A stretch of 64,000 nt of DNA from positions 519,501 to 583,500 of the forward strand of contig NZ_JAOQNH010000002.1 of the NCBI RefSeq assembly GCF_025961205.1, written 5' to 3'. The notes beneath the pieces are model-generated. The model did no database searches. It had not been told where the DNA came from and was given only the letters and a program-made list of their open reading frames with translations. The first letter of the stretch is position 1. The number at the start of each line of letters is the position of its first letter. The position numbers were made by a program, and so were the translations under genes. Positions 5,464 through 28,233 of this stretch are shown piece after piece. The stretch comes from Azospirillum fermentarium (GTDB lineage: Bacteria; Pseudomonadota; Alphaproteobacteria; Azospirillales; Azospirillaceae).

Positions 5464-5646
5464 GGGAATGTCGTCAGGGTATCTCCCATGTGATGCGCAA
5501 CAGTGCTAACGAGAGATTCTTTAATGGATTGATCGGGTTAGGCGATCCACTTATCGCGCTAGCCACGCTACCGCAAAACCAATCAATACCGCAGCCTTTT
5601 CAAGTCGGGCGTGGCCTTGTGCCGTCCGGCTTTGGGAGGACGCGCC

Positions 5647-5862
5647 ATGCAGAGCATAGATTGGCGTATTCCGGCGGCTTATAAACGCATTAAAGACCTT
5701 CCGCCCGCCGGTTTCGCCTGGGAATATCTTCGTCGCAACGAAGACTATCGCCGTGACGTCGAGAGACTCACGCAGAGGAGAGAACCCGCGGGAGAAGAGG
5801 TTAACGCCTTTGCTTCCCGCTGGGGGGTGCGATTTCGCACACGACCCCGACGCGCAGCCTGA
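5647..5862 (+). CDS. fseA: DUF6499-type transcription-regulator domain; first half of a frameshifted FseA-like activator
   Basis: 71 residues in the zero frame, starting at an ATG with a strong GGGAGG site 6 bases upstream. The W-R-P-AAY...GFAWEYLRRNEDYR pattern (residues 4-37) is the DUF6499 signature seen in Msi172 of Mesorhizobium ICEMlSymR7A. Near its end the conserved RWGVRF motif puts a UUU codon directly before C (5833-5836), as at the site where Msi172-Msi171 translation slips by +1 to make FseA. Without slippage the product ends eight codons later. With slippage it joins the DUF2285 frame to give about 264 residues. FseA activates the excisionase gene rdfS; here an RdfS-like gene lies 0.8 kb downstream. 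Confidence 0.75.
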   Translation: MQSIDWRIPAAYKRIKDLPPAGFAWEYLRRNEDYRRDVERLTQRREPAGEEVNAFASRWGVRFRTRPRRAA

Positions 5863-6442
5863 CGGCGCACCGCCTTTCTGGTCGCCGCATTTCAATCCGC
5901 AGGCCATTATTCTGTCTCCGGTCGAGCAGAACGATCCGGATGGCGGGCGGCTTGTCGCTCTCGCACATCTCGATGGCCTGATCCTGCGCCGCGCACCGGA
6001 TGGCTGGCACGCAATCTGGCGTGTCGGTGGGATGGAGCATCAATTCTGGCTGCCACAGGGCGCAATCGATGCAGCAGCTTTCTATGCTGCAATCCTGCCC
6101 ATGGACGAGTTCATGGAATTACGCGCCCACGCGGCCCGCCGCCTCTGGAGGTGCCTGACAGGCCGCTCTCCGGGGCCGGATATTCGCGCCATGCCAGCGC
6201 AGCTTCGGCAATGGCACCTTCTGTCGCTGCGGGCGCTGGACGCACGGCTGCACGGCGAAAGCTATCGCGCCGTTGCCGAAGTCCTGCTCGGCTTCCGTGG
6301 CGACAAGGAAGATTTCGAGACTGATCCGCGCAAGAACAAGGCACGTCGTCTTGTTGCCCACGGCATCAGGATGATGCGCGGAGGCTATCGGCTGCTTTTG
6401 CATTATCCGGTCAAGCCGATTCCACGATCAAAAGGCGACTGA
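5753..6442 (+). CDS. fseA: DUF2285 domain protein; second half of the frameshifted FseA-like activator
   Basis: This +1 frame is open from a GTG at 5753, but no start in it has a ribosome-binding site. Family-like sequence begins only after the slip point, at 5837 (AHDPDAQP...), which suggests it is made as an extension of the DUF6499 frame. The C-terminal ~80 residues (LRALDARLHGESYRAVAEVL to HGIRMM) are the DUF2285 domain, a helix-turn-helix-like fold with a conserved D..GESYR.IA..L core and basic end. In the Mesorhizobium system the fused protein switches on rdfS and is itself bound by QseM. The gene ends 7 bp from the convergent qseM-like gene. Confidence 0.75.
   Translation: MTSRDSRRGENPREKRLTPLLPAGGCDFAHDPDAQPDGAPPFWSPHFNPQAIILSPVEQNDPDGGRLVALAHLDGLILRRAPDGWHAIWRVGGMEHQFWLPQGAIDAAAFYAAILPMDEFMELRAHAARRLWRCLTGRSPGPDIRAMPAQLRQWHLLSLRALDARLHGESYRAVAEVLLGFRGDKEDFETDPRKNKARRLVAHGIRMMRGGYRLLLHYPVKPIPRSKGD
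5833..5836 (+). other. candidate +1 programmed ribosomal frameshift site (UUU-C)
   Basis: Zero-frame codon 63 is ttt (5833-5835) and the next base is c. A tRNA-Phe can re-pair on ttc one base downstream and continue in the DUF2285 frame. The join gives RWGVRF-AHDPD, which is continuous with the usual fused-family consensus. The slip mechanism (tRNA-Phe from UUU to UUC in a conserved motif of the first gene) is established for msi172-msi171; that it works here is inferred. Confidence 0.7.
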
Positions 6443-6449: not shown

Positions 6450-6746
6450 TCACCGATTCCTGTTTGCCGCAGCCTGTTCCAGTATTTGCCTGTAACCTTC
6501 CCGCGACAGCCATTGAGCGCGTTCCAGATGGCTCTGCCAGCATCGCCGGGTGCGCATCTCATCTGATGCCGGATCGCGGTGCAGAACAATTCGCGCCACT
6601 TCCTTCCAGTCGGCTTCCTCGGACTTGGCGTCCAGAAGGCGCAGATAGGTCACAAAGTGCTGCTCGTCATAGGCGGTGATGACATGGCCGGATGGAGCCA
6701 GATCATCCACATGGGGGTCAAGTTCGACGGGCGCTTTCACGGTCAT
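6450..6746 (-). CDS. qseM: QseM-like antiactivator (small DUF2285 protein)
   Basis: 98 residues with an AAGGGG ribosome-binding site just upstream. The block LDPHVDDLAPSG, then TAYDEQHFVTYLRLLDA, then EEADWKEVARIVLHRDP is the stand-alone DUF2285 form, the same family as QseM of ICEMlSymR7A. QseM there binds and blocks both the quorum-sensing activator TraR and FseA, keeping the element integrated in most cells. Here the gene lies tail-to-tail with the FseA-like pair and head-to-head with the RdfS-like gene. The neighbourhood therefore holds antiactivator, target and output together. No TraR/TraI genes and no divergent QseC-type repressor are seen nearby. Confidence 0.65.
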   Translation of the reverse strand: MTVKAPVELDPHVDDLAPSGHVITAYDEQHFVTYLRLLDAKSEEADWKEVARIVLHRDPASDEMRTRRCWQSHLERAQWLSREGYRQILEQAAANRNR

Positions 6747-7207
6747 TCCCCTTCTTTCAGAAGAGTTTCTGCGGTTCGCCCCCGCAATAAAACTCTCTGA
6801 CTCCTGGTGATCGGGGAGTTAGTAACCGTGTTGAACGGCCCCATGGCCTTTAGCTGGAAAGCCTGTTGCATACGCCACAGGCTCCCCGACCATAGGGTCA
6901 AGGAGTGTGGTGCCGTCACGGCCGACACCAACCGTCAACAGGGGTTACTAAGCCCCGGAGCAGTGCGTCTGCCCCATCTGCATCCATAGCCGAACTGCGC
7001 GCGGATGTCTTGAGCGAATCCGCATCGGGCTCACTGAGTTGCTGAAATCTCACGTCTTTTCGCGCTGACATAGCCCCTTTCGGGGGTGCCGTCTGCGTAT
7101 GTACGCAAATGCGGCACGCTACACGCCGCCGATCACTTCCCATGGTTCGCCATAGCGCGCCGCCGTCTCCGGCAGCCGCATCAACCTGACGAACCGGAGG
7201 TGATCTC
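6747..7207. promoter_or_regulatory. divergent control region between qseM-like and rdfS-like genes
   Basis: 461 bp with no convincing gene. It holds a long imperfect inverted repeat: gttagtaacc at 6818-6827 and ggttactaag at 6943-6952, each flanked outside by a cgggg block and inside by a gttga/tcaac block. A hairpin agcctgt/acaggct lies at 6860-6883, and a cccc-tttc-gggg hairpin near 7075-7085. The rdfS-like gene has a near-perfect GGAGGTGA ribosome-binding site at the end of this region. It presumably contains both promoters and the FseA or repressor operators. Confidence 0.5.
7094..7107. promoter_or_regulatory. dyad tgcgta-tg-tacgca, candidate operator
   Basis: Two perfect 6-bp arms with a 2-bp centre lie 100 bp before the rdfS-like start. 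Size and symmetry suit a dimeric regulator. It is not the classical 18-bp tra box. Confidence 0.35.
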
Positions 7208-7480
7208 ATGGCCGAGCGCCGAAACGCGGACCTGCCACCGCGCATGCTGCGTACTCAGGAAGCTGCACGTTTCCTTGGCATTTCTCTTCGCACGCTGGAA
7301 AAACACCGGACCTACGGGACCGGTCCGACCTATCGCAAAATCGGTGGCCGGGTTCTCTACACGGTCGAGGATCTTCAGGCCTGGGCCGACATCGGCGCAC
7401 GCAAATCCACCAGTGACAAGGACGTCGGCACGGTCTTTCCGGCTCGCCCCCTGACGCCTGAAGAGCGGAGCAAGCTCTGA
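7208..7480 (+). CDS. rdfS: RdfS/AlpA-like helix-turn-helix protein (candidate excisionase)
   Basis: 90 residues. Residues 12-60 form a MerR/AlpA-type winged helix: LRTQEAARFLGISLRTLEKHR is the helix-turn-helix, followed by the wing YRKIGGRVLYTVEDLQAWAD. Proteins of this fold and size act as recombination directionality factors. In ICEMlSymR7A RdfS has the same place at the head of the replication/relaxase operon and is needed for excision with IntS. Here the gene directly precedes repA (stop TGA, then ATG of repA). A simple transcription-regulator role is the alternative. Confidence 0.65.
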   Translation: MAERRNADLPPRMLRTQEAARFLGISLRTLEKHRTYGTGPTYRKIGGRVLYTVEDLQAWADIGARKSTSDKDVGTVFPARPLTPEERSKL

Positions 7481-8572
7481 ATGCGGCGCGTCGATCACCC
7501 TGACGCCCTGCGACGAGAAGGCGGTAGCGAGCGCAGCCACCTCGATCCCTTCGTGGTCGCAACCGGCGATGCCAGTCCGCGCGACCAGCGCGATCTGATG
7601 GAGCGGCCTTTCTTCTCGCTGGCGAAGACGCCGCGCACGAAGCCCATCCTCTACAAGACCGCCGATGTCGAGGTGCAGGTGTTCGGGATGCCCGAACATG
7701 GCATGGCGACGATCTGGGATGCCGATGTGCTGATCTGGGCTGCAAGCCAAATCGTTGCCGCCGAAAACAACGGCATCAAGACATCCCGCTTCTTCCGCTT
7801 CACGCCCTATCATCTGCTGCGCGCCATCGGCCGCGACACCGGAAACCGCCAATATCTGCTGCTGAAGGCAGCGCTTGCCCGGCTGCAATCCACGGTCGTC
7901 GCCACGACGATCCGTAACGGCAAGCATTGGCGCCGCCGCCAGTTCTCCTGGATCAACGAATGGGAAGAGATGACCACGCGCGACGGTCGCGTTGAGGGCA
8001 TGGAGTTTGTCCTGCCCGAGTGGTTCTACAACAGTGTCCTTGACCGTTCGCTGGTCCTGACCATCGACCCGGATTATTTCCGGCTGACCGGTGGTATCGA
8101 GCGCTGGCTCTACCGTGTTGCCCGCAAACACGCCGGACATCAGCCGCATGGCTGGCTGTTCGAGGTTGCGCACCTTTACCAGAAATCCGGCAGCATGGCC
8201 CGACCATCGGACTTTGCACTGGACTTGCGCCGCATTGCTGCCCGCCAGCCGCTGCCCGGCTACCAGCTTAAGATCCTGCGCGAGGATCGCCGCGAACTGC
8301 TGCGAATCCGCCCTGAAAATCTATCCACAGTGCCTGTGGATAACATTGTGGATGCCGTCGGTACATCAGGCGCAAAGGGTATCGGTACATCAGGCGCAGC
8401 ACTATCGGCACATCAGGCGCACGAGCCCCAGTTAAGCCTCTGGAACGAAAAGAAGAATCCGACTGCTAACTTAGAATCTAACATAGAATCTAACTTTTCT
8501 TCTTTGACGCGCGCGCATGAAAGGCACGGTGCCAGTGCCACTTCCCGCCGACCTGGGCGGGGTACGCCATGA
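7481..8572 (+). CDS. repA: replication initiator protein A (RepA/RPA family)
   Basis: 363 residues, with the RPA-family block DLMERPFFSLAK...YKTADVEVQVFGMPEHGMATIWDAD followed by two winged-helix-like segments up to about residue 280. Family members initiate theta replication of alphaproteobacterial plasmids and of the excised circles of ICEs. The last 80 codons are low in protein conservation and carry DNA repeats (see 8318-8505). The start directly follows the rdfS-like stop; an internal ATG at 7598, just before ERPFFSL, is an alternative. The end overlaps parA by four bases (ATGA). Confidence 0.9.
   Translation: MRRVDHPDALRREGGSERSHLDPFVVATGDASPRDQRDLMERPFFSLAKTPRTKPILYKTADVEVQVFGMPEHGMATIWDADVLIWAASQIVAAENNGIKTSRFFRFTPYHLLRAIGRDTGNRQYLLLKAALARLQSTVVATTIRNGKHWRRRQFSWINEWEEMTTRDGRVEGMEFVLPEWFYNSVLDRSLVLTIDPDYFRLTGGIERWLYRVARKHAGHQPHGWLFEVAHLYQKSGSMARPSDFALDLRRIAARQPLPGYQLKILREDRRELLRIRPENLSTVPVDNIVDAVGTSGAKGIGTSGAALSAHQAHEPQLSLWNEKKNPTANLESNIESNFSSLTRAHERHGASATSRRPGRGTP
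8318..8505 (+). other. candidate origin of vegetative replication (oriV) inside repA
   Basis: Three signals lie in order. First, DnaA boxes: a perfect TTATCCACA on the minus strand (8335-8343) facing a CTATCCACA (8321-8329). Second, three 17-bp iterons, tcggtacatcaggcgca, at 8358-8374, 8382-8398 and 8405-8421, the third with one change. Third, AT-rich 12-bp repeats ctaac(t/a)tagaat starting at 8466, 8478 and 8490, suited to strand opening. The iterons fall in different reading frames (steps of 24 and 23 bp), so selection acts on DNA, not on protein. Confidence 0.7.
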
Positions 8573-9222
8573 TCGTCGCGCTCCTCAATCAGAAAGGCGG
8601 CGTGGGCAAGACCACGCTGGCGCTGCATCTTGCCGGAGCCTGGGCTGCGCAAGGCAAGCGGGTCATCCTGATCGACGCCGACCCGCAAGGCTCCGCACTG
8701 GACTGGTCAGAGCGGCGCAGCCATGAAGGGCTGCCAAGGCTGTTCACCGTCATCGGCCTTGCCCGCGATACCCTGCATAGGGAAGCGCCGGAACTGGCGC
8801 GTGACGCCGATCATATCGTCATTGATGGTCCGCCCCGTGTCGCTGGTCTGATGCGCTCAGCACTGCTTGCAGCCGACCTGGTGCTGATCCCGGTGCAGCC
8901 ATCCCCCTTTGACGGCTGGGCCTCGGCCGAGATGCTGGCGCTTCTGAACGAAGCGCGCATCTATCGACCGGAGCTGTCCGCCCGCTTTCTGCTGAACCGA
9001 TGCGGTGCGCGCACGATCATCACCCGCGAAACGGCCGAGACACTGGCTGACCATGATCCGCCCTTGCTGGCCACGACGGTTGGCCAGCGTGTCGCCTTCG
9101 CCGAAGCCGCACAGACCGGACGACTGGTCTCCGAGACTGATGGCGGCGAACGGGCCGCACAGGAGGTCACAGCGCTGGCGGCCGAAATCGATGGCCTCGG
9201 TATCGGGAGGATCGTGCCATGA
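8569..9222 (+). CDS. parA: ParA-family partition ATPase
   Basis: 217 residues with the deviant Walker A motif QKGGVGKTT at residues 8-16, the A' motif LIDADPQGSALDW at 35-47 and a Walker B-like VIDGPP near 85. The short form without an N-terminal helix-turn-helix belongs to the type Ib/MipZ-like group used by small plasmids. It should position or stabilise the excised circle together with the small RHH protein encoded next. Starts and stops overlap by ATGA on both sides, showing coupled translation. Confidence 0.92.
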   Translation: MIVALLNQKGGVGKTTLALHLAGAWAAQGKRVILIDADPQGSALDWSERRSHEGLPRLFTVIGLARDTLHREAPELARDADHIVIDGPPRVAGLMRSALLAADLVLIPVQPSPFDGWASAEMLALLNEARIYRPELSARFLLNRCGARTIITRETAETLADHDPPLLATTVGQRVAFAEAAQTGRLVSETDGGERAAQEVTALAAEIDGLGIGRIVP

Positions 9223-9473
9223 CACGTCCGCCTGTCAAATCCGGCTTCGCATCACGTCCGGGCAATCCCGATAGCTGGGTCAGAGCCGCCGATGCGCCGC
9301 CAACCGGCAAGACGGCGACGGAGGCGTTTACCGCCCGCCTGACCATCGACATCACGCCCGAACTGCGCGGGCGCATCAAGGTTGCCGCTTTCCGGCGTGG
9401 CGTCACCGTCGCCGTGATGCTGCGCGAGCTGCTGGTCCGCGAGTTTCCACCCATCGAAGGAGATCAGCCATGA
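9219..9473 (+). CDS. small ribbon-helix-helix-like partition partner
   Basis: 84 residues. The N-terminus is flexible and the C-terminal half (FTARLTIDITPELRGRIKVAAFRRGVTVAVMLRELL) has the beta-strand plus two-helix pattern of ParG/CopG proteins. Such proteins bind centromere repeats and stimulate the ParA ATPase. Position directly after parA with a four-base overlap supports the role. It is often annotated as ParB although it is not of the classical ParB family. Confidence 0.75.
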   Translation: MTRPPVKSGFASRPGNPDSWVRAADAPPTGKTATEAFTARLTIDITPELRGRIKVAAFRRGVTVAVMLRELLVREFPPIEGDQP

Positions 9474-9988
9474 CCGGCAAAACCGTGCGCGCTGCGCATG
9501 AACATCCGCAGGCGGACGGGCCTGCACCGTTCACCACATTGGTCGAACTGACCTTCCAGAAGAATAAGGTCGAGCGGTGGATACGCTTCGGCCGCAAGAG
9601 CTTTGAGCAGATCATCGACCGCCGCCGCAGTCTGATCGGTTTTGCGCCCGAAAGCATCTTCGCACTCAATCGCTGGGCTTCCAACGATTACGGCACCATC
9701 GTCTCGCGGCTCGACATCCTGCGCGCTGTCGGGCGTGGCGAACCGTACCAGACCGTGCCCTTCGTTCGTCCTGGCGGCGAGATCCTGCTGCGTATCGATG
9801 GCTGGCGACAAGTCCAGCGGGTGTTGGCCCTGATCGATGCCGTGGACGCGCTAGGCGTCGATCCGGCCGATGTTGCGCCGGAGCATTGGCGGCACGTCCA
9901 CAACCGTTTGAGTGCTGGTCAGGAACCCAATCCCTACACCCCGGAGCGCCATGCCGCATGGGTCAGCCGCCGGAGGATCGCACCATGA
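9470..9988 (+). CDS. DUF2840 domain protein
   Basis: 172 residues matching the DUF2840 pattern (TLVELTFQKNKVERWIRFGR, then FAPESIFALNRWASNDYGT). The family is found only next to parA and traF in alphaproteobacterial ICEs and plasmids; function is unknown. No catalytic or membrane motif is visible. ATGA overlaps join it to the RHH gene and to traF, so it is made from the same transcript. Confidence 0.88.
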   Translation: MTGKTVRAAHEHPQADGPAPFTTLVELTFQKNKVERWIRFGRKSFEQIIDRRRSLIGFAPESIFALNRWASNDYGTIVSRLDILRAVGRGEPYQTVPFVRPGGEILLRIDGWRQVQRVLALIDAVDALGVDPADVAPEHWRHVHNRLSAGQEPNPYTPERHAAWVSRRRIAP

Positions 9989-10530
9989 GCCGTCGTCATA
10001 TCCTTGCCGTGTCCATGCTGGCCGTCGGCACGCTTGTCGTCACGGCGGTTGCCGATCTGCCAACCCGGCTGATCTGGAATGCGACTGCCAGCGCGCCCAT
10101 CGGCTTCTACACAGTTGCTCCCGCCGATGCGCTCGAAGTGCCCGAACTGGTCGCCATCATGCCGTCTGAGCCGCTGGAGCGGTTCATGGTCGATCGCGGC
10201 TATATCGGACGCGGCGTGCCGCTGCTGAAGCGTGTCCTCGGCCTGCCGGGACAGCGCGTTTGCCGCAACGGTGCGACCATTACCGTCGATCATGTCGAGA
10301 TGGGGGACGCGCTGGAGCGCGACCGCATGGGCCGCGATCTGCCGGTCTGGCAGGGCTGCCGCATTATCGGCGACGGTGAACTCTTCCTCATGAATTGGGA
10401 CATCCGGGACAGCCTCGATGGCCGTTACTTCGGACCTGTTCCCGCCAGTTCCGTCATCGGCCGGGCGCTGCCGCTCTGGACCGATGGGGAAGGTGATGGC
10501 CGCTACGAATGGCGGGCGGCCACGCATTGA
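9985..10530 (+). CDS. traF: S26-family signal peptidase TraF (pilin maturation)
   Basis: 181 residues. One N-terminal membrane segment (about residues 5-24) is followed by SAPIGFY with the catalytic serine, and by LLKRVLGLPGQ with the general-base lysine. The box with NWDIRDSLDGRYFGP resembles the C-terminal conserved motif of signal peptidases. In RP4, TraF cleaves and cyclises the TrbC pilin, and a TrbC-like gene is present at 24063. The start is the ATG overlapping the DUF2840 stop; an in-frame upstream extension is not needed. Confidence 0.9.
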   Translation: MSRRHILAVSMLAVGTLVVTAVADLPTRLIWNATASAPIGFYTVAPADALEVPELVAIMPSEPLERFMVDRGYIGRGVPLLKRVLGLPGQRVCRNGATITVDHVEMGDALERDRMGRDLPVWQGCRIIGDGELFLMNWDIRDSLDGRYFGPVPASSVIGRALPLWTDGEGDGRYEWRAATH

Positions 10531-11616: not shown

Positions 11617-11933
11617 CCATGACGTCTCCACGCGCTTTCGGTCCGCTTCCGGTGTGCAGTCAGGCAAGGGGTCGCCTGGCTGCATTCCCGGCAGGAAGGG
11701 CAAAAAGGGCAGGGAAGGCGGAGGGCAAGATAAAGGAAACCGGCACCCTGTCGGGCCGGTTTCTGGGCAAACCCTTGTCTGCACACTGTTTTGGGGCGCG
11801 GCGCACGGCACCCTGCTTTTGGGTCTCGCGTGCCGCGATATGGCGCAAAGCCTTGGCTTTGCTGGATTTTGACCGGCACTATAGCCGAATATCTGCCGTT
11901 TGCGTGCTTAAACGGCATGGGATGCGCTCATGA
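11613..11933 (+). CDS. hypothetical basic protein overlapping a candidate oriT
   Basis: 106 residues, rich in Arg, Ala, Gly and Cys, no family recognised. The start overlaps the transglycosylase stop (ATGA, GGAG site upstream) and the stop overlaps the relaxase start (ATGA), so translational coupling is well supported. Three perfect inverted repeats lie in its second half. It may serve mainly as a translated spacer that lets ribosomes reach the relaxase through oriT, or encode a small accessory DNA-binding protein. Confidence 0.5.
   Translation: MTMTSPRAFGPLPVCSQARGRLAAFPAGRAKRAGKAEGKIKETGTLSGRFLGKPLSAHCFGARRTAPCFWVSRAAIWRKALALLDFDRHYSRISAVCVLKRHGMRS
11736..11917 (+). other. candidate oriT of the ICE (three inverted repeats before the relaxase)
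   Basis: Inverted repeats are gaaaccgg/ccggtttc (11736-11743, 11756-11763), gcaaagcc/ggctttgc with a 2-base loop (11845-11862) and tgccgttt/aaacggca (11894-11901, 11910-11917). They lie immediately upstream of the relaxase gene, a usual oriT position. I could not recognise a nic consensus, so the call rests on structure and position. Confidence 0.4.
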
Positions 11934-14002
11934 GTGCCGAGGACGAGAACCGCTTTCGCCCCAGGTCAGGTCGGATCAAATCCGACGCGCCGAAGGTGGG
12001 CAAGGCGAAGAGCTTTCTGACGCAGGCGAAGAAGCTGGCGCGTCAGCATAGCAACGGCCCCGGCAGATCATCATCATTCGCATCACGGACGTCCTCGTCG
12101 CCTTCATCTGGTTCGGCCGGAAAGAGCGGGAAGGCATCGCGGACTGGCAAAGGTCCGGGCGTCAAGCGTGGCCGCGGCGCGGCCTTTGTCCGCGCACGCG
12201 CCCTGTCGGGCGGCTGGCGGCACAGTGCGGCCGGCGTGCGCCGCGTCGTCGTCAAAACCCGGTACGTTCAGAACGCGGGGAAGAATGGCAAAGGGGCTGC
12301 TCATCTGCGCTATATCCAGCGCGATGGAACCTCGCGTGATGGCGAACGTGGCCAGCTCTATTCCGCCACCGACGATCGCGCTGATGGAGATGCGTTCCTT
12401 GACCGAGGCAAGGATGATCGCCACCAGTTCCGCTTTATCGTTTCGCCCGAAGATGCCGCCGATCTTACCGATCTCACCGAGCACACCCGCGATCTGATGA
12501 GCCGCATCGAGGCTGACCTTGGCACGAAACTCGACTGGGTGGCGGTCAATCACCACAATACCGGCCACCCCCATGTCCATGTCATCGTTCGGGGCAAGGA
12601 CGATCTAGGCGAGAACCTGGTCATCAATGGCGATTATCTCGCCAATGGCATTCGTGAGCGGGCGAGCGAACTGACCACGCTGGAACTGGGCCCAGTGACC
12701 GAGATCGAGCAGAGCCGCAAGCTGTCTGCCGAAATCGATCAGGACCGCTTTACGCGCATCGACAGCACCATGACCGAGGAGGCCGACGAACGGTTCCTTG
12801 ATCTGCGCCATGAACCGGCCGATGCACGCCGCCAGTTCAACCGCACGCTTCGCCTGCGCCGTCTCGCCAAACTGGAAAAGATGGGGCTCGCCACCGAACA
12901 CGCGCCGGGCGTCTGGGAGCTCGGCGCGAAGATGGAACCGGCGCTGCGTGAACTTGGTGAACGCGGCGACATCATCCGCAACATGCACAAGGCGCTGAAG
13001 GCCGATGGGCAGGACCGTGATCCAATGACCTTCCAGCTTCACGATGCAGCACCCGCGGCGCCCATCACCGGACGCGTCGTGGACAAATATCTCACCGACG
13101 AGATGGGCGAGAACCTGACGCTCGTGGTGGACGGCATCGACGGGCGAACACACCATCTTCCCGGCATTGATCCGGCCCGCGTCGAAGATGCCCGGATCGG
13201 CAGCATCGTCGAAGTTGGCCCCGCCGATACGGCGCAGCGGCCGTCCGATCACACCATCGCTGCGATCTCGGAGAATGGTATTTACCGACCGAGCCGCCAC
13301 CTCGAACAGGCGAAGTTCGAGGGACGTGTACCGGGCGGGGATTACGAGGGCTATGTAGATGCCCATGTCCGGCGACTGGAGGCGCTGCGCCGCGCCGGGA
13401 TCGCTGAGCGGATCGACGCTGACCAGTGGCGCATCCCCGATGACTTCGAGAGTCGCGCCACCGCCTATGATGCCGGTCGCAACCGGCAGGCCAGCATTCG
13501 TGTCGTCTCTACCTTCGATCTGGAAAAGCAGATCGGCGCTGATGGTGCGACCTGGCTGGACCGGCGACTGGTTACGCCGGACGCTTCGGATATTACCCCG
13601 GCCGGGTTCGGTCAGCAGGTGCGCGAGGCTATGGACCAGCGGCGAGAGCATCATATTGCACAGGGCGATGCCACACGGCAGCAGAATGGACGCATCCTCT
13701 ATCGGCGCAACCTGCTCGCCAATCTGCGCGAACGGGAAGTGGCCCGCGTCGGTGCGGAAATGGCCGGGAGCAAGGGCTTGCCGTTTCGTGCGGCTACCGA
13801 TGGCGAGACCGTCAGCGGCAAGTTCACCGGGACCGCACATATATCGAGCGGCAAGTTCGCCATTATCGAAAAGAGTCACGAGTTCACTCTCGTCCCATGG
13901 CGGCCAGTAATCGACCGCCAGATCGGCCGCGAGGTTGCGGGCATCGTGCAGGGCGGATCGGTTTCGTGGCAGCTTGGGAGGCAGCGGGCATTGGGGTTGT
14001 AG
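11930..14002 (+). CDS. rlxS: VirD2/RlxS-type relaxase with DUF3363 domain
   Basis: 690 residues. A basic low-complexity N-terminus (about 1-85) precedes the relaxase fold. The first core segment is VVKTRYVQNAG...HLRYIQRDG, and the metal-binding triad region is NHHNTGHPHVHVIVRG near residues 205-220. The C-terminal half is the DUF3363 region found in this relaxase group. It should nick oriT, stay bound to the 5' end and lead the strand through the TraG/Trb channel. The start overlaps the small upstream frame by ATGA. RlxS of ICEMlSymR7A is the best described relative. Confidence 0.9.
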   Translation: MSAEDENRFRPRSGRIKSDAPKVGKAKSFLTQAKKLARQHSNGPGRSSSFASRTSSSPSSGSAGKSGKASRTGKGPGVKRGRGAAFVRARALSGGWRHSAAGVRRVVVKTRYVQNAGKNGKGAAHLRYIQRDGTSRDGERGQLYSATDDRADGDAFLDRGKDDRHQFRFIVSPEDAADLTDLTEHTRDLMSRIEADLGTKLDWVAVNHHNTGHPHVHVIVRGKDDLGENLVINGDYLANGIRERASELTTLELGPVTEIEQSRKLSAEIDQDRFTRIDSTMTEEADERFLDLRHEPADARRQFNRTLRLRRLAKLEKMGLATEHAPGVWELGAKMEPALRELGERGDIIRNMHKALKADGQDRDPMTFQLHDAAPAAPITGRVVDKYLTDEMGENLTLVVDGIDGRTHHLPGIDPARVEDARIGSIVEVGPADTAQRPSDHTIAAISENGIYRPSRHLEQAKFEGRVPGGDYEGYVDAHVRRLEALRRAGIAERIDADQWRIPDDFESRATAYDAGRNRQASIRVVSTFDLEKQIGADGATWLDRRLVTPDASDITPAGFGQQVREAMDQRREHHIAQGDATRQQNGRILYRRNLLANLREREVARVGAEMAGSKGLPFRAATDGETVSGKFTGTAHISSGKFAIIEKSHEFTLVPWRPVIDRQIGREVAGIVQGGSVSWQLGRQRALGL

Positions 14003-20320: not shown

Positions 20321-20474
20321 CCCACTGTTAACGGTGCCGGAATAGTGCCGCCGTCACCCATCCGATTTGCCGCCGATTGTATTCTGCAGGCCGACGGCCA
20401 CACCTTTGCTATTGCACCACGCGAAAACGACCATTCTCTGATCGGCTCCGTCTCTCTTGCCGATTGGAGCCTGT

Positions 20475-22463
20475 ATGCGTGGAGGCCGAATACTCTGGGG
20501 CCAGATCATTGTCGTGCTCACCATCGTCGTGGTGATGGTCTGGGCTGCAACGCAATGGGTGGCTTTCCGGCTCGGCTTCCAGCCCCAGCTCGGCAACCCT
20601 TGGTTCGATATTGCCGGATGGCCATTCTATTATCCACCTGCCTTCTTCTGGTGGTGGTTTTCCTATGACGCCTATGCGCCCGGCATCTTTACCGAAGGCG
20701 CGTTCATCGCCACGGCAGGCGCGGTTCTTGCCATAGCTGCCGCTTTCCTCATGTCGATCATCCGGGCACGGGAAGCCCGCAATGTCGCCACCTATGGTTC
20801 GGCGCGATGGGCCGAGGACAAGGAAATCCATGCTGCCGGCCTGCTTGGTCCAGATGGCGTCGTGCTGGGGCAGCACCGCAAGGATTATCTGCGTCATGAC
20901 GGCCCCGAGCATGTGCTGTGTTTTGCGCCAACCCGATCAGGCAAGGGCGTGGGCCTAGTCGTGCCGACGCTGCTGACCTGGCCAGGCAGTTGCATCGTCC
21001 ATGATATCAAGGGCGAGAACTGGAACCTGACAGCGGGCTTCCGGTCAAGGCATGGTCGTGTCCTGCTGTTCGATCCGACCAATGTGCAGTCGGCAGCTTA
21101 CAATCCGCTTCTGGAAGTAAGGCAGGGTGAATGGGAAGTCCGCGATGTCCAGAACATCGCGGACATCCTGGTTGATCCCGAAGGTTCGCTCGACAAGCGC
21201 AACCATTGGGAAAAAACCAGCCACAGCCTGCTCGTCGGCGCGATCCTGCATGTTCTCTATGCCGAGAAGGAAAAGACACTGGCGGGCGTCGCCAATTTCC
21301 TGTCCGATCCTCGCCGTCCCGTCGAGGCGACCTTACGCGCGATGATGGACACGCCGCATCTGGGCGAAGCCGGTGTGCATCCCGTCATTGCCTCGTCTGC
21401 GCGGGAGCTTTTGAACAAATCAGAGAACGAACGGTCTGGGGTGCTGTCCACTGCTATGTCGTTTCTCGGTCTTTACCGAGACCCGGTTGTGGCCCGCGTG
21501 ACTCAACGCTGCGACTGGCGCATCGCCGATCTGGTCGGTGAGAAGGAACCGGTCAGCCTCTATCTCGTCGTGCCACCCTCGGACATCAACCGCACCAAGC
21601 CGCTGATCCGCCTCATCCTCAATCAGGTCGGGCGGCGGCTTACCGAGGAACTGGAAACCTCCGGCAAGCGGCATCGCCTCCTGTTGATGCTCGATGAGTT
21701 TCCGGCACTGGGGCGGCTGGATTTCTTTGAATCGGCGTTGGCCTTTATGGCCGGCTACGGCCTGAAAGCGTTCCTGATCGCCCAATCGCTCAACCAGATC
21801 GAGCGCGCCTATGGGCAAAACAACGCCATTCTCGATAATTGCCATGTGCGCGTGGCCTTTGCGGCCAACGATGAACGCACCGCCAAACGGATCAGTGATG
21901 CGCTCGGCACGGCTACGGAAATGCGCGATTCCACCAACTATGCCGGCCATCGCCTCGCGCCATGGCTGGGGCATCTCATGGTGTCGCGGCAGGAAACGGC
22001 GCGGCCATTGCTGACGCCCGGCGAAATCATGCAGCTTCCGCCCACCGACGAGATCGTCATGGTGGCGGGGGTGCCGCCGATCCGTGCTGCCAAGGCACGC
22101 TACTATGCTGATGCGCGGTTTCAGGAGAGGGTGATGTCACCGCCCGATCTGCGCAAGCAGCTGGTGAAAATCACCACATCGGCGCCAGATGACTGGACGA
22201 GCCGCATTGTCGCGGCTGCGAGCGGCAATGGACCCGCCTCAGATACATCCGATGACGATCCGGCCAATGCCGGTATCCGTCGTGAACCGGAACTGCCGGA
22301 GCATGAGGAAATCATCCCGCCACCTCCGCCACCATCGCAGGAGTTCGATTTTCTTGATGATGAGCCAGATGTCGATGCCGCCAAGGCCCGTGCCATGCGC
22401 CAACGGATGCGCATGGTCGCGCGGCAGGCGTCGCTTGACCCAAATGACGGCATCGAGCTGTGA
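20475..22463 (+). CDS. traG: TraG/VirD4-type coupling protein of the ICE
   Basis: 662 residues. Membrane helices lie at about 8-30, 45-60 and 70-92. Walker A is in APTRSGKGVGLVVPTLL (about residue 155), Walker B-like LLLMLDEFPALGRL near 412, and the all-alpha domain lies between. The C-terminus is acidic and proline-rich. It links the relaxosome to the Trb channel and drives DNA export. I chose the ATG that leads into GGRILWGQ, the usual start context of this group. The 154 bp before it (20321-20474) show no gene. Confidence 0.92.
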   Translation: MRGGRILWGQIIVVLTIVVVMVWAATQWVAFRLGFQPQLGNPWFDIAGWPFYYPPAFFWWWFSYDAYAPGIFTEGAFIATAGAVLAIAAAFLMSIIRAREARNVATYGSARWAEDKEIHAAGLLGPDGVVLGQHRKDYLRHDGPEHVLCFAPTRSGKGVGLVVPTLLTWPGSCIVHDIKGENWNLTAGFRSRHGRVLLFDPTNVQSAAYNPLLEVRQGEWEVRDVQNIADILVDPEGSLDKRNHWEKTSHSLLVGAILHVLYAEKEKTLAGVANFLSDPRRPVEATLRAMMDTPHLGEAGVHPVIASSARELLNKSENERSGVLSTAMSFLGLYRDPVVARVTQRCDWRIADLVGEKEPVSLYLVVPPSDINRTKPLIRLILNQVGRRLTEELETSGKRHRLLLMLDEFPALGRLDFFESALAFMAGYGLKAFLIAQSLNQIERAYGQNNAILDNCHVRVAFAANDERTAKRISDALGTATEMRDSTNYAGHRLAPWLGHLMVSRQETARPLLTPGEIMQLPPTDEIVMVAGVPPIRAAKARYYADARFQERVMSPPDLRKQLVKITTSAPDDWTSRIVAAASGNGPASDTSDDDPANAGIRREPELPEHEEIIPPPPPPSQEFDFLDDEPDVDAAKARAMRQRMRMVARQASLDPNDGIEL

Positions 22464-22477
22464 GAACGGAGACAGGC

Positions 22478-22939
22478 ATGACGACGCGCACCCGCATGAA
22501 TGTCTATTTCGATCCCGCTCTGCTGAAACAGGTGGAAGCGCTGGCCTTGCGCCGAAATGTCTCGAAATCCGCCGTGATCGAGGCTGCTGTGGCATCCTTC
22601 ATGTCAGGCGATACGACTGAACGGCTGGAAGCCGCCATGTCGCGCCGCCTGGACAAGCTTGGCCGTCAGTTCGACATGCTGGACGAGGATATTGCCGTGC
22701 TGGGCGAAACCCTCTCGCTATTTGTACAATTCTGGCTGACCCTCACGCCGCCGCTGCCAGACAGTGCAAAACAATCTGCGCGCATCAAAGGAAACGAGCG
22801 TTTCGAGGGATTCATGCAGTCCCTTGGTAAGCGCCTCGCCAACGGTGACAGGTTTCTCAAAGAAATATCGCACGACATGGCTGCGCTACACGACACCTCG
22901 CCGGGGGGTAAAACCGAAGGTGACGGCGATGGGATCTAG
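22478..22939 (+). CDS. CopG/RHH-family protein of the tra operon
   Basis: 153 residues. An N-terminal ribbon-helix-helix (RTRMNVYFDPALLKQVEALALRRNVSKSAVIEAAV) is followed by a helical tail with a membrane-like stretch (LSLFVQFWLTLTPPLP). The gene between traG and trbB is conserved in this ICE type. It may repress the trb operon or act as a relaxosome accessory factor. GGAG precedes the start. Confidence 0.85.
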   Translation: MTTRTRMNVYFDPALLKQVEALALRRNVSKSAVIEAAVASFMSGDTTERLEAAMSRRLDKLGRQFDMLDEDIAVLGETLSLFVQFWLTLTPPLPDSAKQSARIKGNERFEGFMQSLGKRLANGDRFLKEISHDMAALHDTSPGGKTEGDGDGI

Positions 22940-23033
22940 GATTGCAACCCGTCCTATTCACCGCCAGGCTCCGCCGATGGCCGCACGCGCGTAAACATCT
23001 GTTGAAACAGCCCAAAATCAGGTTCTTTTAATC

Positions 23034-23081
23034 GACCCCGATCCGGGGTCCGTCTTTTGCGCGCCCCGTCATGAACGGGGC
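23034..23081 (+). terminator. two tandem hairpins before trbB
   Basis: Perfect stems are gaccccg/cggggtc (23034-23050, followed by cgtctttt) and gccccgt/acggggc (23063-23081). The first may be a weak terminator or attenuator between copG and trb. The second ends 4 bases before the trbB start and could affect its translation. Confidence 0.4.
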
Positions 23082-23085
23082 CGCC

Positions 23086-24066
23086 ATGACTGCATCACAT
23101 CAAAAACCGGAAACGATTGCCCGTGGCGCGCGGATGCTGCGCACTGCGCTTGGGGCATCCATCGCCCGGTTTCTGGAAGATCCCGGTGTGGTCGAGGTGA
23201 TGCTGAACCCGGATGGTCGTATCTGGGTGGATCGGCTTTCCGAAGGGTTGGCCGATACGGGGGAGAGGCTGTCCGCTGCCGATGGCGAGCGGATTGTGCG
23301 TCTCGTCGCCCATCATGTTGGCGCGGAGGTTCACGCCCGCGCACCCCGCGTCTCAGCAGAGCTGCCCGAAACCGGCGAACGGTTCGAGGGTCTATTGCCG
23401 CCCGTTGTCGCGGCACCCGCCTTTGCCATCCGCAAACCCGCCGTCGCGGTGTTCACGCTCGACGATTATGTGGCTGCCGGGATCATGACCGGTCTTCAGG
23501 CCGAAGTGCTGCGCCTGAACGTCGCCACGCGCGCCAACATCCTCGTCGCAGGCGGCACCTCCACCGGCAAAACCACGTTGACCAATGCGCTGCTGGCCGA
23601 GGTGGCGAAGACCTCGGATCGCGTCGTCATCATTGAAGACACGCGCGAGCTGCAATGCGCCGCGCCCAATCTCGTGGCCATGCGGACCAAGGATGGCGTG
23701 GCGACGCTCTCCGATCTGGTCCGTTCATCCCTGCGCCTTCGCCCTGATCGCATTCCGGTCGGTGAGGTCCGCGGTTCCGAAGCCCTCGATCTGCTCAAAG
23801 CCTGGGGCACAGGTCATCCCGGAGGCATCGGCACCATCCATGCCGGTTCTGGCATCGGTGCGCTGCGCCGCCTCGAACAGCTCATTCAGGAAGCCGTCGT
23901 CACGGTTCCGCGCGCGCTGATCGCCGAGACCATCGACCTTGTTGCTGTCCTTGCCGGGCGCGGATCGTCGCGACGGCTGGTCGAACTCGCCCGCGTCGAT
24001 GGGCTGGGACCGGACGGCGATTACGCCATCACCCCTGCAACCACCTCAAAAGGAGACCCTTCATGA
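23086..24066 (+). CDS. trbB: TrbB, VirB11-type traffic ATPase
   Basis: 326 residues. Walker A is [14 protein letters not shown] (about residues 152-165), followed by an Asp box and the Walker B region with a conserved [16 protein letters not shown]. Hexameric VirB11-type ATPases power pilus assembly and substrate transfer at the inner membrane. The ATG at 23086 fits the usual family N-terminus ([19 protein letters not shown]). The stop overlaps trbC by ATGA. Confidence 0.95.
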
Positions 24067-24395
24067 TCCGCACGATTTCGCGCGGCTGCCGCATCATGGC
24101 AACCGCCGCCGCCGCTGTTTCCATCAGCCTGATGCTGGCGCCCGCCGCACACGCCTCCGGCTCCTCCATGCCGTGGGAGGCGCCGCTTCAGAGCATCCTT
24201 CAGTCGATCGAAGGGCCGGTCGCCAAGATCATTGCGGTAATCGTCATCATCGCCACCGGCCTGGCGCTGGCCTTCGGCGATACCTCGGGCGGTTTCCGCC
24301 GCCTGATCCAGATCGTCTTCGGCCTCAGCATAGCCTTCGCCGCCAGCTCCTTCTTCCTGTCGTTCTTCTCGTTCGGCGGCGGGGCGCTCATCTGA
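24063..24395 (+). CDS. trbC: TrbC, conjugative pilin precursor
   Basis: 110 residues with a long signal peptide ending in AHA (about residue 31) and two hydrophobic helices typical of VirB2/TrbC pilins. In P-type systems the pilin is trimmed and cyclised by TraF, which is encoded at 9985. Overlaps trbB by four bases and trbD by one. Confidence 0.92.
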   Translation: MIRTISRGCRIMATAAAAVSISLMLAPAAHASGSSMPWEAPLQSILQSIEGPVAKIIAVIVIIATGLALAFGDTSGGFRRLIQIVFGLSIAFAASSFFLSFFSFGGGALI

Positions 24396-24676
24396 TGGCG
24401 GGCGGCCTCGAACAGCTCTGCGCGGTGCCGGGATTTTCGATCCCGGTCCATCGGGCGCTGACCGAGCATATCCTGCTCGGCGGCGCACCGCGCTCCATCG
24501 CCATTGTCAACGGCACGCTGGCCGGGGCCGTCGGCCTCGGCCTTCGTCTCTGGCTGGTTGGCATCGCCATCTGGGCGGTTGGTCATTTCCTCGCGGTATG
24601 GGCAGCAAAACGCGACCCGCTCTTCGTCGAGGTCGGGCGCAGGCATCTGCGCATCCCCGGTCATCTGTCGGTGTGA
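24395..24676 (+). CDS. trbD: TrbD, VirB3-like membrane protein
   Basis: 93 residues. The start GGLEQLCAVPGFSIPVHRALTE and one long hairpin of hydrophobic residues (about 35-70) match TrbD. It helps anchor the TrbE ATPase at the inner membrane. TGATG overlap with trbC. Confidence 0.92.
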   Translation: MAGGLEQLCAVPGFSIPVHRALTEHILLGGAPRSIAIVNGTLAGAVGLGLRLWLVGIAIWAVGHFLAVWAAKRDPLFVEVGRRHLRIPGHLSV

Positions 24677-24686
24677 GGGCGCGCGC

Positions 24687-27137
24687 ATGATGAACCTCAC
24701 CGAATATCGCCGCACCTCCGCTCGCCTTTCCGACTATCTGCCATGGGCAGCGCTGGTTGGCCCAGGCATTGTGCTGAACAAGGATGGCAGCTTCCAGAGG
24801 ACCGCGAAGTTTCGCGGGCCGGATCTGGATTCTGCTGTCGCTGCCGAACTGGTTGCGGTCGCCGGTCGCATCAACAACGCCGTGCGCCGTCTGGGTTCGG
24901 GCTGGTCGATCTTCGTCGAGGCACAACGCTCCGAGGCCGCGACCTATCCCGACAGCAAGTTTCCAGATGCGGCCTCCGCACTGGTCGATGCGGAGCGCAA
25001 GGCCGGGTTCGAGGAAGCGGGCACACATTTCGTGTCCGGTTATTTCCTGACTTTCCTCTGGCTGCCGCCTGCAGAAGACGCCGCCCGTGCCGAAACCTGG
25101 CTCTATGAAGGTCGCGAACAATCTGGTGTCAATCCGCATGAGCTGCTGCGCGGCTTCATCGACCGCACCGACCGCGTGCTGTCGCTGCTCGACGGCTTCA
25201 TGCCGGAATGCCGCTGGCTGGATGATACCGGTACGCTGACCTATCTCCATTCCTCCATCTCCACCAACCGTCATCGCGTCCGCGTGCCCGAAGTGCCCAT
25301 GCACCTCGATGCGCTGCTGGCCGATCAGGCCCTGACCGGCGGACTGGAGCCGCGCCTTGGTGACGCGCATCTGCGCATCCTGACCATCATCGGCTTTCCT
25401 ACCGCGACTACGCCTGGCCTGCTCGACGAGATGAACCGGCTCGCGTTCCCGTATCGCTGGTCAACCCGCGCCATTCTGATGGACAAGACGGATGCAACGA
25501 AGCTCCTCACCAAAATCCGCCGCCAGTGGTTTGCCAAGCGCAAATCCATCGCCGCGATCCTCAAGGAGGTGATGACCAACGAACAATCGGCGCTGGTGGA
25601 TACCGATGCGTCCAACAAGGCGCTCGATGCCGACATGGCCTTGCAGGAACTCGGCGCTGACGTTGCCGGGATGGCCTATGTCACAGCGACCGTCACCGTC
25701 TGGGACATTGATCCGCGGATTGCCGACGAGAAGCTGCGTCTGATCGAGAAGATCATTCAGGGCCGCGATTTCACGGCCATGCCCGAAACCGTCAATGCCG
25801 TCGATGCCTGGCTCGGCTCGATCCCCGGACATGCCTACGCCAATGTCCGTCAGCCACCGATCTCGACGCTCAACCTTGCCCACATGATCCCGCTATCGGC
25901 CGTGTGGGCGGGGCCGGAACGGAACGAACACCTCGGAGCGCCCCCCTTGCTGTATGGCAAGACCGAAGGTTCGACGCCGTTCCGGCTTTCCCTTCATGTC
26001 GGCGACGTGGGCCATACCCTCGTCGTCGGCCCGACCGGCGCGGGCAAGTCCGTGCTGCTGGCGCTGATGGCGCTGCAATTCCGCCGCTATGAACGCAGCC
26101 AGATCTTCGCCTTCGATTTCGGGGGATCGATCCGCGCATCCGCGCTGGCCATGGGCGGCGACTGGCATGACCTCGGCGGCGGGTTGACCGAGGGATCGGA
26201 GGTGTCCGTCTCCCTGCAACCGCTAGCGCGAATTGGTGATGCTTATGAGCGGTCATGGGCCGCTGACTGGATCGCTGCGATCCTGATGCGTGAGGGCATG
26301 ACCATCACGCCGGAGGTGAAGGAGCATATCTGGACGGCGCTGACCTCGCTGGCATCTGCACCCGTCGGCGAGCGCACCATCACCGGCCTTGCTGTCCTGC
26401 TGCAATCGAATGACCTGAAGCAGGCGTTGCGACCATATTGCATCGGTGGTGCCTATGGCCGGTTGCTCGATGCCGAGGCCGAACACCTCGGCCACGCCGA
26501 TGTGCAAGCCTTCGAGATCGAGGGACTGGTCGGCACAGGAGCTGCGCCGGCTGTGCTGGCCTATCTGTTTCATCGGATCGGCGACCGGCTCGATGGTCGG
26601 CCAACCCTGCTTATCATCGACGAAGGTTGGCTGGCGCTGGATGATGAGGGGTTCGCCAACCAGCTCCGCGAATGGCTGAAGACGCTCAGGAAGAAGAACG
26701 CTTCCGTTATCTTCGCCACGCAGTCGCTCTCGGACATTGACGGGAGCAACATCGCGCCCGCCATCATCGAAAGCTGCCCGACACGGCTGCTTCTGCCGAA
26801 TGAACGGGCCATCGAGCCGCAGATCACTGCGATCTATCGGCGGTTCGGCCTCAATGACCGGCAGATCGAGATCCTCGCGCGGGCGACACCCAAGCGGGAC
26901 TATTACTGCCAGTCGCGCCGCGGCAACCGCCTGTTCGAGCTGGGCCTGTCCGAAGTCGGCCTCGCGCTCTGCGCCGCATCATCCAAAACCGATCAGACCC
27001 GCATTGCAGATCTCGTCGCCGAGCATGGGCAGGAGGGCTTCCTCGCCGCCTGGCTGCGCGATCGCGGCGTCGAATGGGCGGCGGAGCTGATCCCCGATCT
27101 CACCAATCTCATCCCCCAGACCGAAAAGGAGTCCTGA
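24687..27137 (+). CDS. trbE: TrbE, VirB4-type ATPase
   Basis: 816 residues. Walker A is VVGPTGAGKSVLLALMA near residue 449, Walker B is LLIIDEGWLAL near 650, and a later FATQSLSDI motif follows. VirB4 ATPases energise pilus assembly and substrate transfer. The start is a double ATG (24687 and 24690) 10 bp after trbD. Confidence 0.95.
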   Translation: MMNLTEYRRTSARLSDYLPWAALVGPGIVLNKDGSFQRTAKFRGPDLDSAVAAELVAVAGRINNAVRRLGSGWSIFVEAQRSEAATYPDSKFPDAASALVDAERKAGFEEAGTHFVSGYFLTFLWLPPAEDAARAETWLYEGREQSGVNPHELLRGFIDRTDRVLSLLDGFMPECRWLDDTGTLTYLHSSISTNRHRVRVPEVPMHLDALLADQALTGGLEPRLGDAHLRILTIIGFPTATTPGLLDEMNRLAFPYRWSTRAILMDKTDATKLLTKIRRQWFAKRKSIAAILKEVMTNEQSALVDTDASNKALDADMALQELGADVAGMAYVTATVTVWDIDPRIADEKLRLIEKIIQGRDFTAMPETVNAVDAWLGSIPGHAYANVRQPPISTLNLAHMIPLSAVWAGPERNEHLGAPPLLYGKTEGSTPFRLSLHVGDVGHTLVVGPTGAGKSVLLALMALQFRRYERSQIFAFDFGGSIRASALAMGGDWHDLGGGLTEGSEVSVSLQPLARIGDAYERSWAADWIAAILMREGMTITPEVKEHIWTALTSLASAPVGERTITGLAVLLQSNDLKQALRPYCIGGAYGRLLDAEAEHLGHADVQAFEIEGLVGTGAAPAVLAYLFHRIGDRLDGRPTLLIIDEGWLALDDEGFANQLREWLKTLRKKNASVIFATQSLSDIDGSNIAPAIIESCPTRLLLPNERAIEPQITAIYRRFGLNDRQIEILARATPKRDYYCQSRRGNRLFELGLSEVGLALCAASSKTDQTRIADLVAEHGQEGFLAAWLRDRGVEWAAELIPDLTNLIPQTEKES

Positions 27138-27139
27138 CC

Positions 27140-27922
27140 ATGACGATCCGTTTTTCCCGTTCCCGGGCCATGCTCATGGCGGCAACACTGCTCGCCGCGC
27201 CGCTTGCATTCTCGCCCATGCTGACCAGTCCGGCCCACGCACAGTTCGGTTTCGGCCGCATCGTCTATGACCCGACCAACTATGCGCAAAACCTGCTCAC
27301 GGCCGCGCGCACGCTGGAGCAGATCAACCACCAGATCACCTCGCTTCAGAACGAAGCGCAGATGCTCATCAATCAGGCGCGTAACCTGACCAGCCTGCCA
27401 TATTCCTCGCTCCAGACCTTGCAGCAGAGCGTCCAGCGCACCCAGCAGCTTCTGGCCCAGGCGCAGAACATCGCCTTCGACGTGCAGAACGTCGATCAGA
27501 TGTTCCAACAGAAATACGGCAATGTCTCGCTCTCTGCCACCGACACCCAGCTTGTCGAAGATGCCCGTTCGCGCTGGCAGAACACAGTTGGCGGTTTGCA
27601 GGATGCCATGCGCGTGCAGGCCGGCGTGGTCGGCAATATCGACACCAACCGCGCCGAAATGTCGGCCTTGATCGGCCAAAGCCAGAATGCCACCGGCGCC
27701 TTGCAGGCAACGCAGGCGGGCAATCAGCTTCTTGCTCTCCAGTCGCAGCAACTTTCCGACCTGATCGCGCTGATGTCGGCCAATGGCCGGTCCGAGGCGC
27801 TGATCGAGGCCGAGCGTGCCACCGCCGCCGAACAGGGCCGCGTGCAGCGCGAGCGCTTCCTGACACCGGGATCGGGCTACCAGCCCGGCAATGCCCGGAT
27901 GTTCGGCAACGGCAACAACTGA
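27140..27922 (+). CDS. trbJ: TrbJ, VirB5-like protein
   Basis: 260 residues with a signal peptide (cleavage near AHA-QFGFG). A long alpha-helical, Gln-rich body carries the TrbJ pattern VYDPTNYAQNLLTAARTLEQINHQI. It is probably a minor pilus-tip or periplasmic component. It starts 2 bp after the trbE stop. Confidence 0.92.
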   Translation: MTIRFSRSRAMLMAATLLAAPLAFSPMLTSPAHAQFGFGRIVYDPTNYAQNLLTAARTLEQINHQITSLQNEAQMLINQARNLTSLPYSSLQTLQQSVQRTQQLLAQAQNIAFDVQNVDQMFQQKYGNVSLSATDTQLVEDARSRWQNTVGGLQDAMRVQAGVVGNIDTNRAEMSALIGQSQNATGALQATQAGNQLLALQSQQLSDLIALMSANGRSEALIEAERATAAEQGRVQRERFLTPGSGYQPGNARMFGNGNN

Positions 27923-27942
27923 CCGGACAGGAGGAGCGCGAC

Positions 27943-28230
27943 ATGGACGGCAAGATGCTGGCACGGCTGGGCGCGATCATATTCGTGGCTATCGCCATCA
28001 CCGCCACGGTGATCGAAATGACCCGCGAGGATGAACCGGCGCAGAACCGTCCGGCTCCATCGCTTCAGCCCTCTGCCGATCCGCTGCGCCAGAGCCTGCG
28101 CCGTTGCCAGCAGTTAGGCGAGGCCGCCGTGAACGATCCCGGCTGCCTCGCCACCTGGGCCGAGAACCGTGACCGGTTCCTCGGCCGGACGCCGGTGCCC
28201 GCCGCCCCGCATCAGAACGGGGGAGAGTGA
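27943..28230 (+). CDS. TrbK-like entry exclusion protein
   Basis: 95 residues: an N-terminal membrane helix (about 6-24) and a C-terminal region with conserved C..LG..A..DPGCLATWAENR...F. This matches the alternative TrbK group located between trbJ and trbL. Such proteins probably block entry of a second copy of the element. It is not the lipoprotein form of RP4 TrbK. Confidence 0.82.
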   Translation: MDGKMLARLGAIIFVAIAITATVIEMTREDEPAQNRPAPSLQPSADPLRQSLRRCQQLGEAAVNDPGCLATWAENRDRFLGRTPVPAAPHQNGGE

Positions 28231-28233
28231 ACC

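Follow-up and report, generated by a model that had tools for sequence, protein, structure and literature searches.

A predicted +1-frameshifted fseA gene and a structured leader RNA of the adjacent qseM-like gene on a probable ICE of Azospirillum fermentarium

Two overlapping frames in the window (the whole 64,000-nucleotide stretch of Azospirillum fermentarium DNA analyzed) are best read as one gene, fseA, in which a +1 slip at UUU-C would yield a 264-residue activator encoded beside a QseM/rdfS circuit; a probability of roughly nine in ten is assigned to this reading. The frames, their domains, the invariant slip site, the neighbouring genes and the probable ends of the ICE are established here. 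The fseA locus comprises the following features, with the basis of each in brackets:

5634..5640, plus strand: Shine-Dalgarno sequence of fseA, GGGAGGA, 6 nt before the ATG (sequence)
5647..5862, plus strand: 5' frame of fseA, DUF6499 (PF20109), 71 codons (ORF and family match)
5821..5836, plus strand: frameshift site TGG GGG GTG CGA TTT C, at which tRNA-Phe would slip by +1, UUU to UUC (sequence and comparison)
5834..6442, plus strand: 3' frame of fseA (+1), beginning with the UUC codon read after the slip, DUF2285 (PF10074) (sequence and family match)

In the sequence and the ORF list the zero frame opens at ATG 5647 and closes after 71 codons at the stop 5860-5862. It matches DUF6499 in Pfam (E 7.8e-24, 84.2 bits, cut-off 23.8), as the +1 frame matches DUF2285 (E 3.5e-29, 102 bits, cut-off 26.4). 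The overlap reads TGG GGG GTG CGA TTT CGC, the slip-site codons being TGG at 5821, GGG at 5824, GTG at 5827, CGA at 5830 and TTT at 5833-5835, followed by C at 5836. Conceptual translation with one slip gives a joined product of 264 residues, ...SRWGVRF-AHDPD.... The first-pass annotation had proposed a 71-codon DUF6499 frame with a strong ribosome-binding site, overlapped at +1 by a DUF2285 frame with UUU-C inside RWGVRF, and an RWGVRF-AHDPD fusion of about 264 residues; coordinates and junction are right, and the predicted fusion has this length. A PDB sequence search with the joined protein returned nothing at 0.01, and a scan of a viral collection with the DUF2285 alignment gave no conserved stretch. 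Upstream of fseA lies a 94-codon frame (window 5179-5463, minus strand) which, by eye, seems to resemble a VapC-type PIN protein tail.

According to the model, ribosomes would translate DUF6499 as far as UGG-GGG-GUG-CGA-UUU-C, where the P-site tRNA-Phe would shift at low frequency from UUU to the overlapping UUC, and +1 reading through DUF2285 would complete the 264-residue FseA. Ribosomes that do not slip would release the 71-residue DUF6499 protein, ending 8 codons past the Phe, as the main product of the fseA mRNA. FseA would then bind an inverted repeat that precedes the rdfS-like gene, switching on the rdfS operon and ICE transfer; QseM would bind DUF6499, titrating and blocking FseA. The slipping of the window gene, its tRNA and its rate are presumed; low-frequency frameshifting, rdfS activation, the FseA box and QseM binding would apply to the window locus by analogy with the ICEMlSymR7A papers, and the QseM and FseA steps by homology.

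Conservation of the slip site was monitored in 100 loci. Eighty were located by the DUF6499 part alone, with a query ending before the motif to keep the codon unbiased; they represent the best 80 among the 429 loci confirmed, and the sample is therefore tilted to close relatives. A further 20 were drawn from 289 genomes of the class, 16 of which contributed, and include the window's copy (L008) and a second copy in the same genome (L023). The best DUF2285 match falls in the +1 frame in 96/100 loci, in frame 0 in three (L019, L021 and L046), and is missing in L020. L019 and L021 are single-frame homologues lacking the motif; L046 looks decayed, with the W replaced and a second frame break, and retains TTT-C. 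The WGxxF pattern is present in 94 of the 96 +1 loci. L018, which features WGLCTF and still has TTT-C, and L100, with a truncated DUF6499 and a DUF2285 match 1 kb off, were left out of codon counts.

The motif Phe codon is UUU in all 94 loci (the window's copy and one with identical DUF6499 included), while the UUU share elsewhere in the same genes is 27% by loci and 0.256 by clusters. By clusters UUU is found in 40/40 (p 2e-24 vs. in-gene usage, a value overstating independence because the clusters are related). The base that follows is C in 89 loci and U in five; being always C or U, it makes the slipped codon always Phe. The check suggested beforehand, that ttt-c be invariant across related elements, holds for UUU, and for the next base in most loci only. 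The signal is larger than UUU-C, since codons just upstream are also strongly enriched: in the 40 clusters, CGA accounts for 24/27 Arg codons before UUU (background 0.095), GGG for 27/40 Gly codons (background 0.135), and UUR (TTG or TTA) for 31/36 Leu codons (background 0.12). CGA and UUR before the slip are favoured as strongly as the SD-like GGG, positions 5824-5832 of the window serving as an example; as a guess, a weak E-site codon before the slip may aid slipping. In the +1 site of E. coli prfB an SD-like G run similarly lies just upstream of the slip codon; the fseA site differs in having no in-frame A-site stop and a longer spacing.

The upstream enrichment of GGG, UUR and CGA, together with the occurrence of CCC after UUU in 62/94 loci, would suit a +1 shift made at another codon or tRNA (following CGC or CCC), or one driven chiefly by the upstream UGGGGG and CGA. 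This is unlikely, as the codon after UUU varies (CCC, CGC, UCC, CCU, CAC, UGC) while UUU is constant. Ramsay, in 2015, is moreover said to have described the slip of tRNA-Phe in FseA as one from UUU to UUC.

Protein-level constraint changes frame at the slip site. Among 61 distinct segments, amino-acid identity upstream of the site is 0.48 in frame 0 vs. 0.31 in +1; downstream it is 0.61 in +1 vs. 0.55 in frame 0, a small gap, and frame 0 is stopped in 61/61 and +1 in 0/61. The zero frame terminates 8 codons past the Phe in 76/94 loci; in L016 and L025 it stays open for 213 codons beyond the slip codon, overlapping the +1 DUF2285 frame. Surplus bases at runs of U are frequent errors, and the shift might in principle stem from faulty sequencing or from a recent indel that inactivated the gene; the switch of the protein frame at the slip site, and the same +1 relation in 96/100 loci from many genera and assemblies, leave this a negligible chance.

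Alternatively, translation of the DUF2285 frame could begin at a start codon within it (GTG 5753 or an internal codon), with the two halves working as separate proteins. The window's +1 frame has 174 open nt ahead of the slip, with one GTG and one TTG among them, so that the earlier description of this frame as having no usable start was too strong for the window. The public annotation of a Ketogulonicigenium vulgare copy has two separate overlapping genes, and an Azorhizobium pair is described as two genes acting as a unit (PMC9601964, accessible part). No start of this kind is conserved: from the stop upstream to the slip site, the +1 frame lacks any ATG, GTG or TTG in 26/94 loci and 18/40 cluster representatives, and no ATG or GTG in 26/40. 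The other 22 representatives have a start codon of some sort, none common to all; in L017 the +1 frame opens just 3 nt ahead of the slip. Separate translation would also leave UUU in 94/94 unexplained, and is held to be improbable; a single frameshifted fseA is preferred.

The frameshifted fseA is of a kind already known. The accessible part of Jowsey 2023 (PMC10359603) reports 4,709 FseA homologues, of which about 61% carry the +1 site, hence frameshifting is not novel as a kind; it also describes a UGGGGG run adjoining the +1 site, an FseA box, and QseM binding to DUF6499. Compared with FseA (Msi172-Msi171) of ICEMlSymR7A as presented there, the window shares DUF6499 and DUF2285 with a +1 site, the adjacent UGGGGG, the rdfS-like gene, the qseM partner and trb genes. 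The first-pass annotation had drawn the same parallel, which appears to stand on comparison of domains, UUU-C site and ICE setting. The differences are that no LuxI was found in the window genome and no PF03472 on its ICE, that the element carries a large serine recombinase and not IntS, and that qseM lies between fseA and rdfS and has a structured leader. In the ICEAc of Azorhizobium caulinodans, according to the accessible part of PMC9601964, the FseA-like rihF1 pair is required for transfer and works without TraR; its authors state that rihF1b and rihF1a each start on their own and that no frameshift joins them, in which they would differ from fseA.

To the right of fseA the window contains the following features, identified by the matches or searches indicated:

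6450..6746, minus strand: qseM-like gene for an antiactivator with a single DUF2285 domain, convergent to fseA (PF10074, E 1.2e-6, 29.5 bits, cut-off 26.4)
7086..7117, unstranded: inverted repeat GTGCCGT-N18-GCGGCAC, candidate FseA box (alignment, pattern search)
7208..7480, plus strand: rdfS-like gene, HTH_17 (PF12728, E 2.7e-10)
7481..8572, plus strand: replication initiator protein A, repA (PF10134)
8569..9222, plus strand: ParA-like ATPase (family search)
9470..9988, plus strand: DUF2840 gene (PF11000)
9979..10530, plus strand: traF-like S26 peptidase (PF10502)
11930..14002, plus strand: relaxase with DUF3363 (PF11843)
20457..32427, plus strand: traG and trb-type conjugation genes (family search)

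The gene order is fseA, convergent qseM-like, divergent rdfS-like, repA, parA, DUF2840, traF and relaxase, with trb-type genes further right. Synteny of fseA-qseM-rdfS-repA extends to relatives: qseM is found in 73, rdfS in 65 and repA in 64 of 80 related loci, some of which are cut by contig ends. A QseM partner is encoded beside fseA, and its binding to FseA is predicted by analogy. An inverted repeat GTGCCG...CGGCAC is found upstream of rdfS in 59/66 loci, by a pattern devised after viewing the alignment and occurring 86 times in the 753,077 nt of loci L001-L099; it is absent in 7/66, including the second FseA copy of the same genome. The repeat at 7086-7117 has arms of 7 nt, 18 apart, and lies about 90 nt before the rdfS-like start codon. 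The published FseA box consists of two inverted hexamers 15-16 bp apart, 62-67 before the rdfS start (PMC10359603, accessible part); 7086-7117 is a candidate for such a box. The second FseA/QseM/rdfS set of the genome (L109, G000:C3:1012000-1028000) has the order qseM-fseA-rdfS and a TTT-C site, and gave no match to the leader RNA model described below. Cross-talk between the two elements is possible.

The only large serine recombinase match (PF07508) in the genome is at C2:493369-493698, which places it 26 kb beyond the left edge of the window. Perfect 31-bp direct repeats at C2:492525 and C2:590111 (L176 10025-10055; L108 6611-6641), about 97.6 kb apart, flank both the recombinase and the entire window. 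They resemble what we take to be the 3' half of tRNA-Met; no tRNA was called by ARAGORN in the window or in both flanks. Integrase, flanking repeats and conjugation genes make the 97.6-kb element a probable ICE, of which excision is predicted. The nearest tyrosine integrase match on C2 is about 527 kb away, and a reading without an ICE, based on the lack of such an enzyme nearby, was dropped once the serine recombinase and the 31-bp repeats were found. In the label of excision activator given earlier to FseA, the excision role is an extrapolation: the integrase found is a serine recombinase, where ICEMlSymR7A has IntS. The block has a near copy (94.3%), leader RNA included, on a conjugative plasmid of K. 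vulgare. Besides traG at 20457, a second coupling-protein gene (PF02534, E 9.2e-83) is located at window 54139-55794, minus strand, near an IS transposase, and is perhaps a trace of another conjugative element.

The first-pass annotation had noted an ICE without visible quorum-sensing genes, and the observation extends beyond the window: no LuxI-type synthase (PF00765) was found in the whole genome at E 0.01. The same model found matches in 10/17 relatives' genomes and in 0/14 control genomes. The single LuxR-type binding domain (PF03472) in the genome is at C2:1039780, outside the ICE, and none was found on the ICE. TraR/TraI drive, a trait of the ICEMlSymR7A circuit and not of the family definition, was not encountered in the searches of this genome. 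As no LuxI was found in the genome, an AHL signal made by the cell itself is an improbable input to the FseA switch; possible inputs are a signal from outside or an orphan LuxR. LuxI matches are missing in 7/17 relatives' genomes as well, so that FseA without a genomic AHL synthase is not unique to this genome. The window remains a well-neighboured example of the frameshift on an ICE, in a genome with no AHL synthase found.

More important than the frameshift is the region preceding qseM. Tentatively, and with the odds slightly against it, the qseM brake would be under its own ~155-nt, doubly pseudoknotted, riboswitch-like cis-regulatory leader, of a class known at most from its 3' part as sRNA-Xcc1, and this leader, not AHL quorum sensing, would feed the state of the cell into the FseA/QseM decision. 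Two features are involved:

6767..6976, minus strand: conserved structured leader region of qseM (alignment, consensus fold, covariation)
6803..6956, minus strand: leader RNA core, with a 5' hairpin, PK1 (6945-6950 with 6820-6825), a long-range P2, and PK2 (6882-6891 with 6809-6818) (covariance model, pairing tests)

In alignments the qseM-rdfS gap is deeply conserved. A block of about 210 nt has both anchors in 63/74 qseM-bearing sequences (window included); of the 11 others, five later matched the covariance model, two of them with full scores and three in part. The consensus fold of 29 sequences has 61 pairs, 15 of which show changes on both sides. Covariation is 0.224 vs. 0.128 in shuffles, which do not keep relatedness (0/500), and at most 0.062 when slid; further pair types are no commoner than in shuffles (42 vs. 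42.2; 329/500). Where pairs vary, G-U is retained on the sense strand of qseM (180 G-U vs. 9 A-C cells, a partly circular count). A leader on the plus strand was rejected, the consensus fold being weaker (-52.8 vs. -87.8; again partly circular, each structure having been predicted on its own strand). A reading as an attC-like site was set aside because of conserved unpaired motifs, gene-linked orientation, and ends which presumably do not fit the attC consensus.

Across the class, the loop of the 5' hairpin pairs with a distant 3' segment (PK1), and GGTCGGGGAG pairs with CTCCCCGATC (PK2). When arms from the same sequence were compared with re-paired ones (n=58, 28 being qseM leaders; 0/2000 permutations in each case), PK1 scored 6.81 vs. 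4.42 bp, P2 5.31 vs. 3.89, PK2 7.74 vs. 6.80, and P1, weakly, 3.84 vs. 3.60. In 23 RNAs from the phylum search PK1, P2 and PK2 each gave 0/5000, and P1 2/5000. The tests of PK1 and P2 lean towards the model because their arms were part of the covariance model; those of P1 and PK2 were not. Segments are reused in the nested consensus fold, the 5' GGGG pairing with the CCCC of the PK2 3' arm, and 6882-6891 with 6896-6905; nested fold and pseudoknots are thus alternatives, or two states of a switch. The modelled leader RNA is apparently doubly pseudoknotted.

A covariance model built from the leader core found one strong copy in the genome itself, the next best having E 1.3. Matches were found in 32/289 alphaproteobacterial genomes at E 0.01 and in 22/398 genomes of the phylum at E 0.001, six of them outside the class; a few genomes belong to both sets. 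Only four of the 32 leader-RNA genomes have a DUF6499 match, which is absent in 28. In 40/53 RNAs an SD-like sequence, an ATG and an ORF of at least 60 codons (or open at the locus end) begin 33-67 nt past the 3' end, vs. 7/53 at 125-175 nt and 0/53 on the antisense side, as a cis-acting leader would show. L147-L149, three of the 53, lie ahead of qseM relatives, and without them the count is 37/50. In the window the distance from the leader RNA 3' end to the qseM ATG is 57 nt.

The nearest Rfam family is sRNA-Xcc1 (RF02221), whose model matches the 3' part of the leader RNA on the same strand. The window scores 27.8 bits, below the gathering score of 53, six of eight relatives 29.5-39.1 bits, and L127, a distant relative, 56.2 bits, reaching the cut-off; the family was matched at E 0.1 in 5/20 loci. 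The Rfam model is 87 nt long; in contrast, the leader class spans about 155 nt, with the 5' hairpin and apparently two pseudoknots. In the accessible parts of the literature, sRNA-Xcc1 is placed upstream of symE in Xanthomonas integrons (PMC12444791), and gives a Northern band near 100 nt, the RNA having been mapped to 88 nt (PMC2996969), for which reason a separate short RNA is also conceivable. The full-length class was not found described in Rfam 15 or in a limited literature search of partly accessible sources, and looks new. The leader RNA would set the amount of QseM, and a signal lowering QseM would release FseA; in this way the leader may regulate qseM and supply the missing input. If so, an RNA on the brake would gate ICE transfer, and a family of 'trans-acting sRNA' that is poorly understood would turn out to be one part of a widespread cis-acting leader, raising a question of ligand that can be put to the test.

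When 20 frames downstream of the RNA were compared with Pfam, 11 gave matches: two XRE-type regulators, two outer-membrane barrels, HNH nuclease, SNase nuclease, DUF4268, PhyH, FkbM, TM2 and glycosyltransferase. XRE-type regulators recur downstream of the leader RNA in L120 and L140 (Pfam HTH_3) and, by eye, in L150, L151, L152 and L158. In L143, L161 and L172 the PK2 3' arm is followed by a U run, intrinsic-terminator-like by eye, at which these copies may end transcription.
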